DNA from: an uncultured Actinomycetes bacterium
Lineage (GTDB): Bacteria > Actinomycetota > Acidimicrobiia > Acidimicrobiales > RAAP-2
Direction of reading: 5' to 3'
DNA length: 64,000 nt
Assembly: GCA_903893745.1 (NCBI GenBank)
Contig: CAITNF010000017.1
Coordinates: 62,001 to 126,000 of the forward strand
Shown here piece after piece: positions 14,117-23,541 of the stretch. A program made the position numbers and the translations under genes. Below the pieces are notes generated by a model, which was not told where the DNA came from, searched no databases, and worked only from the letters and a program-made list of their open reading frames with translations. The stretch's first letter is position 1; each line of letters starts with the position of its first letter.

Positions 14117-17288
<3,172 letters not shown>

Positions 17289-20306: not shown

Positions 20307-21476
20307 CTATGGACGCGCCGCGCCAATAAGGCCAAAGGTGAAGATTGGCGCAAGGCTGACGTTGGTACCCGTGTGGGCGGCCGCGATGATCGTGCTGGTG
20401 CCCCAAGGCCCGCTACCGGCGTACATCACGACGTGATCGACCTGATGATCTCCGTCGAGGTTGTAATAGAAGAGCAGATCGCCGGGCTGAAGTGCGGTCA
20501 AAGGGACGTGGCGCATTGCGGGCCATTGGGATTGTGTCGTGCGGGGAATCTTGAAGCCCGCTTTAGCCCAAGCCCATTGCACGAGTCCCGAGCAGTCAAA
20601 ACCATGTCCAGGTGATTCGCCACCCCATACGTACGGAACACCAATTTGAGATTTGGCGGCTCGCAGGGCGGCCATCCCCTGGGCCGAGCCAGCCGCAGAG
20701 CCCGAGAAGGTAGTGGGAGTCGCTCGACGGATGGCGGCCAAAACGAGGTTTGCGGCCGCTTGGCCTCCTACTGCTGACGCCGCGGCTACCGCCTGTTGTT
20801 CGAGAGCAATGTTGTGTTTCTTTGCCGCTGCGACACCAACTTGAATTTCGTAGGCAATAATTTGGGCGCGTAATTCACGAGTAACGACAGTGAGCGTGGC
20901 TCGAGTGGCGTTTTCATTTCTGATATTTTGCGCGAGCAGCGCCCTCATCTTGATGGTCTGTTGTTGGGCTTTCGCTCGTTGTGCGGCCACTGCAGTAATA
21001 GTGACGTCGAGCGATTGCTTCTGTTGTTCGTAAGTATTTCTTAAGTGTGTCAAGTTCCCGATCACTTGATTCTCGTACACCTTGCGCGCGTCGCTCGTGG
21101 TTACGTGCTGATTGAAGAGCGCGAGAATCTGCGCAACTGCGGCCCCCAGTACGTACGCCTTGACGTCGGCAATGGCTAACGACTTAGAGGTGGACTTAAT
21201 AGCGGCGCGCTTGACCAATTCTTGGTGCTGCAGTTTTATAATTCTGGCGTTGGCTGAAGCGAGTTCAACTTTGGCGGCGTCATATTGATTCGCGGTGATT
21301 TCGCTGATCTTGGATTGTTGGGAGAGGGTTGCAGAAAGTTTGGCGATAAGCGCCTTGGTTTGCGTAATCGTTCGGGCCTCGGCGGTGACCGGCGCCAGAA
21401 GTCCCAGCATCGTGACCACGCTCAAAATCACGAGGGGGGCGATGTGAGTCGTAGCCCGACGACGCACGCGTCTCAT
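20307..21476 (-). CDS. secreted NlpC/P60 peptidoglycan endopeptidase with coiled-coil N-terminus
   Basis: The 389-residue protein has a basic signal peptide (to about residue 35) and a long Ala/Gln/Lys-rich coiled coil (about 36-250). A C-terminal NlpC/P60 domain carries catalytic Cys in GHGFDCSGLVQWAW, His in VDHVVMYAG and a third polar His in AAAHTG. This is the RipA/RipC layout, in which the coiled coil restrains a D,L-endopeptidase that splits daughter cells. Start ATG 21476 follows a TAGGCT box by 6 nt, consistent with a leaderless transcript. The downstream GT2 gene begins 7 bp after its stop. Confidence 0.92.
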   Translation of the reverse strand: MRRVRRRATTHIAPLVILSVVTMLGLLAPVTAEARTITQTKALIAKLSATLSQQSKISEITANQYDAAKVELASANARIIKLQHQELVKRAAIKSTSKSLAIADVKAYVLGAAVAQILALFNQHVTTSDARKVYENQVIGNLTHLRNTYEQQKQSLDVTITAVAAQRAKAQQQTIKMRALLAQNIRNENATRATLTVVTRELRAQIIAYEIQVGVAAAKKHNIALEQQAVAAASAVGGQAAANLVLAAIRRATPTTFSGSAAGSAQGMAALRAAKSQIGVPYVWGGESPGHGFDCSGLVQWAWAKAGFKIPRTTQSQWPAMRHVPLTALQPGDLLFYYNLDGDHQVDHVVMYAGSGPWGTSTIIAAAHTGTNVSLAPIFTFGLIGAARP

Positions 21477-21482
21477 GGCTCA

Positions 21483-21488
21483 AGCCTA
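21483..21488 (-). promoter_or_regulatory. -10 box for leaderless NlpC/P60 transcript
   Basis: TAGGCT on the minus strand is followed by 6 nt (TGAGCC) and ATG 21476. No ribosome-binding site is visible. Confidence 0.45.
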
Positions 21489-21555
21489 GTTAGCCAGCGC
21501 AAGAATTAGGGCAAAACCCGGGGTATCGGGCGATGCGTTACGGTTACGTCGCACC

Positions 21556-21650
21556 ATTCACCGCGTGGGGGCGTAGCCCAATTGGCAGAGGCAGGGCGCT
21601 TAAACCGCCTCCAGTGAGGGTTCGAGTCCCTCCGCCCCTACGCGGTGAAT
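21556..21650 (+). repeat. 11-bp perfect inverted repeat flanking the UAA tRNA
   Basis: ATTCACCGCGT at 21556-21566 is the exact reverse complement of ACGCGGTGAAT at 21640-21650. The arms abut the tRNA acceptor stem, and the right arm begins with the discriminator base. The precursor could therefore fold into one continuous 18-bp helix (11 flanking pairs plus 7 acceptor pairs). Confidence 0.85.
21567..21640 (+). tRNA. tRNA with anticodon UAA (leucine codon UUA) but short variable arm
   Basis: The cloverleaf has acceptor GGGGGCG/CGCCCCT (outer G-U pair), D stem GCC/GGC, anticodon stem GGGCG/CGCCT with loop CTTAAAC, a 5-nt variable region (CCAGT), and T arm GAGGG-TTCGAGT-CCCTC. The discriminator is A and no CCA is encoded. 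Anticodon TAA would read UUA (Leu), yet bacterial leucine tRNAs normally have a long class II variable arm. Identity as leucine is therefore uncertain. It may be a class I leucine-like tRNA of actinobacteria or a tRNA-like element with another role. Confidence 0.8.
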
Positions 21651-21669
21651 TGCGTGTCCAATTCTTTAG

Positions 21670-21675
21670 TAGCGT
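21670..21675 (+). promoter_or_regulatory. -10 box for leaderless gene at 21683
   Basis: TAGCGT is followed by 7 nt and GTG 21683. This sets the likely start of the downstream membrane protein, whose open frame otherwise extends back through the tRNA. Confidence 0.4.
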
Positions 21676-21682
21676 TGCTCGC

Positions 21683-22516
21683 GTGGCTAACAGCACTTCA
21701 GGTAAATGGGTTAGTAGGGTCGGCGCGTCGGGAGGCGGCAAGGCCTACAAGAAGGCGCGTCCCGGGAACTACTACGGCGTGCTTGCCGTAATCGTGGTGT
21801 TGGGGCTCTTCGCTGCCGTCTACTCGCGTTATGAATATCAGCACCCGAGTAAGGGCGCTGCTGGTGTGCCACCAACGGTTGGTACTACTTGGTACGCATC
21901 GCTTGCTATTGAAAACTGTGGAGTGCAATTACCCGCTCTGACCCCCGACCCCTCCTACAAGGGTGGATTCACGGTGCAGGCACCAAACGTAATCAAGGTC
22001 AGTCCCGTGACTGCAGCCGACTCCGGTGTGCACGCGACGCTTTCGCAGTTCGCCGCCGAGTTCCCAGGTTTGATTGTAAGTTCGACTGAGTTGGCCGTGC
22101 CGAACTCGACCGGTACGGCTAATCAGACCACCACCTTCAAGAACGGTCAGGTGTGCGGGACTTCAACGAAGTACGCGGGCCAAGCTGGTCACGTGTCATT
22201 TGCCTACTGGACGAGTTTTGCTCAGAAGAAGCCAATTGTGACAACTGATCCGACCAAGATCAAGTTCGCGCAGTATCTGCGCGTCACCATGGCCTTTGAC
22301 CCTACGGGGGTCACGCCAGCGCCTCCGTCACAGTTAACCGTTAACGCGATGGTGAAGGCTGGTTCTGCGCCAGCGACGACGACGACGCTCACTCCGGTGA
22401 CGTTGCCGATCACCAGCACGTCAATCACGGTCAACACCGTGCCGACGCCAACGACGGCCCCCGCTACGACGCCAACGACGGCCCCAATCACCACAACGAC
22501 GGCAGCCAAGGGCTGA
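21683..22516 (+). CDS. single-pass membrane protein with extracytoplasmic domain, function unknown
   Basis: About 277 residues from GTG 21683. A short Gly/Lys-rich cytoplasmic start precedes one membrane segment (YYGVLAVIVVLGLFAAVY, residues about 28-46). A globular extracytoplasmic domain of about 150 residues follows with two cysteines (ENCGVQ, QVCGTS). The last 45 residues are a Thr/Pro/Ala tail made of repeated PTT and TTA units. The open frame extends upstream through the tRNA, but that part is not coding. It is followed 2 bp later by the GDP-mannose pyrophosphorylase gene. I do not recognise the family. Confidence 0.75.
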   Translation: MANSTSGKWVSRVGASGGGKAYKKARPGNYYGVLAVIVVLGLFAAVYSRYEYQHPSKGAAGVPPTVGTTWYASLAIENCGVQLPALTPDPSYKGGFTVQAPNVIKVSPVTAADSGVHATLSQFAAEFPGLIVSSTELAVPNSTGTANQTTTFKNGQVCGTSTKYAGQAGHVSFAYWTSFAQKKPIVTTDPTKIKFAQYLRVTMAFDPTGVTPAPPSQLTVNAMVKAGSAPATTTTLTPVTLPITSTSITVNTVPTPTTAPATTPTTAPITTTTAAKG

Positions 22517-22518
22517 GC

Positions 22519-23541
22519 TTGAAGTCGATCATTCTGGTCGGCGGCGAAGGAACTCGCTTACGACCGTTGACGTACGCGACACCTAAGCAGATGTTGCCGT
22601 TGGTTGGCGTGCCCATGATTGAGTGCGTATTCAAGACTTTGGCCAGTCACGGGGTTACCGATGCCGTCCTTTCATTGGGCTACCTCCCTGATCGCTTTAT
22701 TCAGGCCTATCCGGATAACCAGATCGCCGGAGTATCGGTGACGTACGCCGTCGAGCCCGAACCACTGGATACCGCCGGCGCCATTCGATTCGCGGCAACG
22801 TTTGCGGGGATCGACGAGACGTTCATCGTGGTTAATGGTGACGTCTTGACCGACCTCAACGTCACCAAGTTGCTCGCGTTTCACCGCAGCCACGAGGCCG
22901 AGGCGACGATTGCTCTGCACGCGGTCGAGGACCCGTCACGGTTTGGAGTGGTCCCCACGACAGCCAATGGCCAGGTCCTGGCTTTCGTCGAGAAACCGCC
23001 GCGCGACGAGGCGCCAACCAATCTAATTAATGCGGGAACTTACGTGCTGGAACCGAGCGTGCTCGATCTCATTGCCCCGACCGGCCGGGTCAGCATCGAG
23101 CGGGCAACGTTTCCGGCGCTGGCCGCCAAAAAAAGCCTCTTCGCGATGGCCGATGACGCCTACTGGCTCGACACTGGAACCCCTCAGACCTATCTCCAGG
23201 CGAATTTTGACATCCTCGAAGGACGAGACGGGAAACACGACCAAGTGCTCACCGATGGTTCATGGCGACACGAACGAAGTCAGATTGACGCCTCGGCCAC
23301 GTTGCATCACGCGGTCGTGGACCGCGACTGCATAGTTGGGGCAAACGTGGTGCTTGAAAATGTAGTCCTGCTGCCGGGTGCAGTGGTTGAAGATGGGGCG
23401 CAAGTCCGATCGTCAATTATCGGACCCGAAGCGGTCGTAGGTAGTTACTCGATTCTTGGCCCCACGTGCGTGGTCGGCGCCAAAGTGCACGTGGAGCCCG
23501 AGTCCATTCTTTCTGGTGACGTTCGACTTGGTGGCGTGTAG
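22519..23541 (+). CDS. mannose-1-phosphate guanylyltransferase (GDP-mannose pyrophosphorylase)
   Basis: The 340-residue nucleotidyltransferase starts LVGGEGTRLRPLT and keeps TPKQMLPL, EPEPLDTAGAI, VVNGDVLTD and the FVEKP signature. A C-terminal left-handed beta-helix follows (from about residue 255). This is the eukaryotic-type GDP-mannose pyrophosphorylase layout found in actinobacteria (mycobacterial ManB). A glucose-1-phosphate thymidylyltransferase cannot be excluded by motif alone, but the phosphomannomutase at 40.0 kb and the reductase at 29.2 kb favour mannose. Translation appears to start at TTG 22519. Confidence 0.85.
   Translation: MKSIILVGGEGTRLRPLTYATPKQMLPLVGVPMIECVFKTLASHGVTDAVLSLGYLPDRFIQAYPDNQIAGVSVTYAVEPEPLDTAGAIRFAATFAGIDETFIVVNGDVLTDLNVTKLLAFHRSHEAEATIALHAVEDPSRFGVVPTTANGQVLAFVEKPPRDEAPTNLINAGTYVLEPSVLDLIAPTGRVSIERATFPALAAKKSLFAMADDAYWLDTGTPQTYLQANFDILEGRDGKHDQVLTDGSWRHERSQIDASATLHHAVVDRDCIVGANVVLENVVLLPGAVVEDGAQVRSSIIGPEAVVGSYSILGPTCVVGAKVHVEPESILSGDVRLGGV

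Follow-up and report, generated by a model that had tools for sequence, protein, structure and literature searches.

Leucine tRNAs belong to class II and carry a long variable arm. In the part of a review considered here, a long variable arm is ascribed to tRNA-Leu everywhere except in animal mitochondria, and variants of E. coli tRNA-Leu without anticodon arm and long variable arm are described as still being charged (PMC9976931). A second feature of tRNA biogenesis that is relevant here is the pairing of precursor ends. As excerpted, recent work describes pre-tRNAs with extended acceptor stems as frequent in E. coli, with an effect that can be small (PMC10731613), while pairing between the 5′ leader and the RCCA sequence inhibits RNase P (PMC9433436, PMC10731613), and two such pairs already lower the kcat/Km of the E. 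coli reaction (PMC9433436). Since extended stems are frequent in E. coli, pairing between positions -1 and 73 alone is not extraordinary. In the open-licence literature searched, no description was recognised of a class I tRNA-Leu in bacteria or of covarying leader/trailer pairs. Here, both features are described for a single gene, tRNA-Leu(UAA), located in the window, i.e. the whole stretch of 64,000 nucleotides of bacterial DNA that was analysed.

A short tRNA-Leu(UAA) with complementary flanks

ARAGORN predicted a tRNA-Leu with the anticodon taa at positions 21567-21641, the last base of which (C 21641) lies beyond the discriminator A 21640, and the Rfam tRNA model matched positions 21567-21640 with 54.4 bits (gathering threshold 29). 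Besides tRNA, a low-threshold Rfam search at the locus returned sub-threshold matches only. CCA is not encoded, as A73 is directly followed by cgc. The variable loop of 5 nt does not reach the 10 or more nt by which the long variable arm of class II is defined, and with 74 nt the molecule is shorter than the genome's remaining Leu tRNAs (CAG, GAG, CAA and UAG; 83-87 nt). The leucine identity elements described for E. coli, A73, A15-U48, G18G19 and A20a, are all present (own numbering; set taken from the excerpted part of PMC9976931), and the genome contains one gene above the cut-off for the bacterial LeuRS family.

The short form was traced with sequence patterns at three taxonomic levels. 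Within the genus, a pattern admitting both shapes found a Leu(UAA) tRNA in 94 of 99 genomes, and it was short in all matches listed, one of them being lengthened by an N gap. The pattern-match length was 42 nt in the genus versus about 50-55 nt (once 65 nt) among the listed long forms of the order. In the order, matches were obtained for 225 of 298 genomes; among the matches listed, short and long forms occurred mostly in different families, with one family (f14) having both. Of 396 genomes sampled in the phylum, 85 had a match to the short-form pattern, although a few may be other tRNAs or chance hits. Among 87 contigs with a genus-type tRNA, the 80 listed are nearly all marked as metagenome-assembled, and most bear the titles Acidimicrobiaceae, Acidimicrobiales, Actinomycetes or uncultured actinobacterium. 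Six loci with a genus-type tRNA (L292, L306, L314, L319, L343 and L355) stand under the titles Candidatus Saccharibacteria or Acidobacteria/Acidobacteriota, which may misname the organism. A further family of the order (G042) has short UAG and CAA tRNA-Leu (L049 500-574 (-) and L050 495-568 (-)) and a long UAA tRNA.

A survey of the tRNA genes found no other UAA tRNA in the genome. In 55 ORFs of the window that were chosen mechanically, TTA accounts for 129 of the 2096 Leu codons; it is present in 51 of these ORFs, including one at 15552-16847 that is enolase-like by the reading of its translation. The tRNA body is near-invariant in 55 aligned genus loci, in which the flanks are divergent. The sole UAA tRNA found, the widespread use of TTA and the near-invariant body suggest that tRNA-Leu(UAA) is very probably a working tRNA in steady use and not a decoy. 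The same observations speak against the idea, put forward in the first-pass annotation, that the RNA serves as a folded tRNA-like element in place of a tRNA.

That annotation had also drawn attention to a helix of 18 bp formed by the tRNA ends together with perfect flanking repeats. The 11 nt preceding the tRNA are indeed the exact reverse complement of the 11 nt that begin with the discriminator base (Table 1), and the pairing continues without a break into the 7-bp acceptor stem, resulting in 18 consecutive pairs. The helix is not Watson-Crick throughout, as 17 pairs are of this type and one, G1.U72, is a wobble. With the leader paired to the 3′ side beyond position 72, the sequence and its predicted fold correspond to an extended acceptor stem. 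The minimum free energy structure calculated by RNA folding for positions 21552-21655 is the full helix (-57.6 kcal/mol), and 0 of 200 shuffled sequences were as stable. When the 15-nt segments on either side of each of the genome's 46 tRNA genes were paired with each other, the flanks of tRNA-Leu(UAA) had the strongest pairing (-16.8 kcal/mol), which was equalled in 0 of 90 swaps; for the 46 tRNAs taken together flank pairing was not significant (p = 0.06). By simple arithmetic, a given exact match of 11 nt has a chance of about 4^-11. The earlier statement that the match is improbable by chance thus holds, all the more as pairing is conserved in the genus with altered letters (see below). 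The terminator-like match at 21640-21657 is weak and has a stem of 5 bp; the helix is not considered to be a terminator.

Table 1. Features at and around the tRNA-Leu(UAA) locus (positions within the window).
Feature	Position	Strand	Basis or remark
NlpC/P60 gene, divergent	20307..21476	-	upstream of the tRNA in 36/36 genus loci examined
-10-like hexamer TACGGT (TANNNT type)	21539..21544	+	consensus only
Leader arm attcaccgcgt	21556..21566	+	reverse complement of 21640-21650; complementarity to trailer kept in genus
tRNA-Leu(UAA), class I shape, 5-nt variable loop CCAGT, G1.U72, A73, no encoded CCA	21567..21640	+	ARAGORN, Rfam, sequence; body nearly invariant in 55 genus loci
Trailer arm acgcggtgaat, first base is discriminator A73	21640..21650	+	sequence, folding, genus alignment
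-10-like TAGCGT, 7 nt before GTG start of next gene	21670..21675	+	sequence; genus recurrence
Downstream gene, GTG start	21683..22516	+	downstream in 31/36 genus loci; no Pfam match

A sigma-70 scan of positions 21400-21800 found no promoter. Upstream of the leader arm, TANNRT motifs start between positions -29 and -18 in 59 of the 64 distinct genus loci, versus 1 match over all 64 in the interval -60..-35. Transcription is predicted from these sequences to start near 21551, giving a leader of about 16 nt that would lie nearly entirely within the pairing region. On the other side of the tRNA, 42 of the 64 genus loci contain the motif TTTAGTA(G/A/T)C no more than 60 nt downstream, and in 41 of the 64 GTGG comes 5-14 nt after it, which suggests that the downstream gene has its own leaderless transcript. 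Due to this intervening -10-like box with GTGG, a role of the tRNA as 5′-UTR element of the downstream gene was discarded. A longer ORF from 21533 that reads through the tRNA is probably spurious. Beyond the window, about 14 kb separate a partial copy of tRNA-Arg(CCU), 48 bp in length, from the intact gene (G000:C17:8501-8548 and 22520-22592), and partial copies of this tRNA exist in many of 41 genus genomes searched, which suggests a recurrent integration site.

Complementarity of leader and trailer in the genus

For the comparative analysis 99 genomes of the genus were searched; the genome of the window is an 18-contig assembly of 1.66 Mb. The enlarged Leu(UAA) set comprised 134 rows, corresponding to 64 distinct loci, and 12 loci were missed owing to contig ends, N or the pattern. 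From a smaller genus set, 6 of 39 loci were removed as flank near-duplicates. In a swap test, the pairing energy of each locus's leader with its own trailer was compared with that of the same leader with the trailers of other loci. Own partners reached a mean of -12.28 kcal/mol versus -9.29 kcal/mol for swapped partners in the 64 distinct loci (z = -9.3), and -12.67 versus -9.32 kcal/mol in 30 distinct loci (36 given, 36 usable; z = -6.8). After strict de-duplication z was -7.3 for 36 loci, after a stricter one -4.4 for 23 loci, and for the distal arm parts alone it was -5.4. Five control segments of the same loci, shifted upstream or downstream, gave nothing comparable (z from -2.2 to +0.6), the segment with z = -2.2 (p = 0.016) counting against the signal, and a control with reversed leaders gave z = -1.7.

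Covariation was analysed in an ungapped alignment of 55 of the 64 loci, restricted to those with a 74-nt tRNA. In a fixed register of 11 pairs, 58.8% of the cells were paired versus 52.7 ± 1.4 in shuffles, 84 cells were changed on both sides versus 56.2 ± 6.3, and the covariation score was 0.234 versus 0.154 ± 0.017. None of 500 shuffles reached any of these three values, and slides from -3 to +3 were all lower. The number of pairs with change on both sides and that of further pair types showed no excess: 407 and 120 of the 500 shuffles, respectively, gave values at least equal to them, and some slides gave higher values than the fixed register. In addition, the leader/trailer helix is absent from the RNAalifold prediction for the 55-sequence alignment, and 41% of the cells are unpaired in the fixed register.

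Across the loci, the proximal clamp shares a consensus, with G-2:C74 in 51 and C-3:G75 in 44 of 64 loci, and the distal part covaries, all six pair types being found at, for example, positions -7 and -8, with shifts and bulges present. The loci listed have 7-14 predicted leader/trailer pairs; in many relatives the helix is bulged, mismatched or shifted, and some loci with U72 (for example L033 and L344) have scant pairing near the tRNA ends. With a forced acceptor stem, swapped genus flanks likewise had high pair counts, as the loci have the proximal GCG/CGC in common; the swap and covariation tests were therefore relied upon. The element is a tendency with a shifting register and not a fixed helix; register and length vary and the -1:73 pair is unconserved. 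Pairing of the discriminator with position -1, emphasized in the first-pass annotation, exists in this genome and is not general, position -1 being U in 35, C in 17, A in 6 and G in 6 of the 64 loci.

The swap test was also applied to other tRNAs of the genus. At k = 15, z was +0.9 for Leu(CAA), +0.7 for Trp, -0.3 for Arg(CCT) and +0.7 for Arg(TCG), and at k = 10 the same four tRNAs gave z between -0.8 and +1.1 (loci given/usable/distinct: Leu(CAA) 30/28/18, Trp 30/30/26, Arg(CCT) 30/28/28, Arg(TCG) 30/29/28). For 40 short Leu(UAA) loci drawn from 16 further families of the order, the test gave z = -0.4. In three loci that belong to the family of the genus but to other genera, the terminal pair is G1:C72 and the flank pairing does not stand out (ranks 18, 77 and 26 among 80 swaps). 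Judged by these comparisons of sequences, paired precursor ends are specific to Leu(UAA) among the five tRNAs tested in the genus. The better pairing of own than of swapped partners and the flat controls argue that the complementarity of leader and trailer in the genus is selected at the RNA level, as an isoacceptor-specific structure of the precursor. The arms thus covary in close relatives, which the first-pass annotation had proposed as a check: according to the swap and covariation tests complementarity is kept with changed letters, and the lack of conservation that would have spoken against the helix was not what the relatives displayed.

Acceptor stem stability, precursor maturation and rival explanations

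Base 72 is U in 36 and C in 2 (L043 and L051) of 38 genus loci that had been chosen irrespective of this base; the set of 87 contigs (80 of them listed) was found with a pattern requiring U72 and carries no weight in this respect. The short Leu(UAA) tRNAs of the outer families have G1:C72 in 40 of 40 cases. Thermodynamic folding, which models unmodified RNA and mispredicted the anticodon arm, gave genus bodies a mean acceptor-stem probability of 0.55 with foreign flanks and 0.93 with native flanks. With C72 restored in silico the genus bodies reached 0.70-0.80, and introduction of U72 into outer-family bodies with outer flanks lowered the probability from 0.78 to 0.58. Swapped genus flanks already gave genus bodies 0.81, and the 46 tRNAs of the genome in general had 0.82 with native versus 0.68 with swapped flanks; the folding benefit is therefore not unique to true partners. 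Of the native genus precursors, 4 of 64 were below 0.8, one of them near zero. Based on the lower acceptor probability with U72, its rescue by C72 or native flanks, and the occurrence of U72 in the genus versus C72 outside, it is proposed that the paired ends may compensate for a weak acceptor end. A strict link between U72 and the helix was ruled out, since L043 has C72 yet retains the helix and two tRNA-Glu genes have G1.U72 without notable flank pairing. A tRNA-Met(CAU) outside the window (G000:C2:15667-15740; L059 2768-2841) also has G1.U72. In its genus rows the leader is CGCCA in 10/10 and the trailer starts with CCAGGC in 9/10 distinct loci (10 distinct of 29 usable of 30 loci). It was not retained as a parallel case, because the leader CGCCA is the spacer after a tRNA-Thr and the near-uniform trailers leave too little variation for covariation to show.

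The explanation preferred here, held tentatively, is that the paired ends secure the register of the acceptor stem and offset the weak G1.U72 pair until they are resolved by RNase P and then by RNase Z or exonucleases, maturation being probably slower but productive. In the primary tRNA-Leu(UAA) transcript, the flanking repeats would make up the 5′ leader, with a predicted length of about 16 nt, and the 3′ trailer. During and after transcription, the helix would clamp the acceptor stem, preserve the 7-bp register of a tRNA with a weak terminal pair, and protect the G/C-rich body against invasion by leader or trailer. RNase P, which would need to unwind the helix, and after it RNase Z or exonucleases would then remove the paired ends, and CCA addition would come next. 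Maturation would probably be slower than average, because E. coli RNase P is slowed once two or more leader:RCCA pairs adjoin its cleavage site; by this analogy, slowed 5′ maturation of the tRNA-Leu(UAA) precursor is plausible. The product would be a normal, required UUA decoder.

Two rival explanations concern processing as well. In the main one, the extended helix could be the processing site of RNase III or another double-strand RNase, whose cut would yield a shortened precursor on which RNase P and RNase Z could act. Together with the T stem on which they stack, the 18 pairs would form a continuous helix of about 23 bp, uninterrupted in this genome and about the size of an RNase III substrate, and processing by a 3′ endonuclease path is expected where no CCA is encoded. 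However, the bulged, mismatched or shifted helices in many relatives fit a clamp better than a measured cleavage site, and we consider a cleavage site rather unlikely. Alternatively, the helix could be a regulatory brake on RNase P and RNase Z, by which mature tRNA-Leu(UAA) and the translation of UUA would depend on the growth state, similar to the bldA control of UUA genes in Streptomyces (cf. PMC12772374). The slowing of RNase P by leader:RCCA pairing, as excerpted from PMC9433436 and PMC10731613, and the restriction of the helix to the UUA isoacceptor among the five genus tRNAs tested would agree with this. Against it, the codon counts given above, with TTA also in the enolase-like ORF, indicate that UUA use extends beyond any special set of genes, and a strong brake would slow growth generally; such regulation appears unlikely.

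Two further explanations do without a precursor structure. The inverted repeat is intergenic and lies between divergent genes, as might be expected if it acted as DNA, e.g. as operator, attachment site or cruciform, but complementarity is kept across a 74-bp tRNA while the letters change, which a sequence-specific DNA site would not need; we regard this as exceedingly improbable. Chance complementarity without function, inherited by related genomes, would draw on the fact that kinship can push sequences above column shuffles without any structure. Strict de-duplication, the shifted segments, the reversed leader and the four control tRNAs of the same genus make this highly improbable.

The clamp proposed above can be placed in a wider scenario, which we put forward as doubtful. 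In a lineage of Actinomycetota, UUA would be decoded only by a class-I-shaped tRNA-Leu, and one genus would have evolved a dedicated, covarying leader/trailer clamp that folds the precursor and times its maturation, compensating for an acceptor end weakened by a G1.U72 pair, which would be kept for some function of the mature tRNA.

Comparison with described tRNAs and precursors

The genus would offer a natural, phylogenetically traceable case of a tRNA leader and trailer selected as a pair, and its dozens of natural variants would make the effect of precursor structure on tRNA folding and on the order of processing testable. The short tRNA-Leu(UAA), the sole UUA decoder found in the genus, departs from the review statement on the long variable arm, as excerpted from PMC9976931.

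The closest described precursors are the E. coli pre-tRNAs with an extended acceptor stem (PMC9433436, PMC10731613, as excerpted), in which the leader likewise pairs, from positions -1 and -2 onwards, with the 3′ side by the RNase P site and so lengthens the acceptor stem. In these, N(-1) to N(-3) pair with the molecule's own RCCA, whereas 7-14 pairs into a non-CCA trailer are predicted for tRNA-Leu(UAA) here; moreover, the helix described here covaries across a genus and is present in one isoacceptor of five tested. With the bacterial class II tRNA-Leu(UAA), including bldA of Streptomyces, the tRNA shares the anticodon UAA, A73, a D loop of the AATTGGCAGA type with A15, G18G19 and A20a, and U48 (own numbering), but it has 74 nt and a 5-nt variable loop in place of the long variable arm. 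The class I shape is shared with animal mitochondrial tRNA-Leu without a long variable arm, as excerpted from PMC9976931; the tRNA here is bacterial and scores as an ordinary tRNA. A tRNA-like fold inside a longer RNA is finally also known from the non-coding RNAs YrlA and mascRNA. The locus scores 14.1 with the Rfam model of YrlA (gathering threshold 69) and 14.3 with that of mascRNA (42.5), in contrast to its tRNA score, which lies well above the respective threshold.
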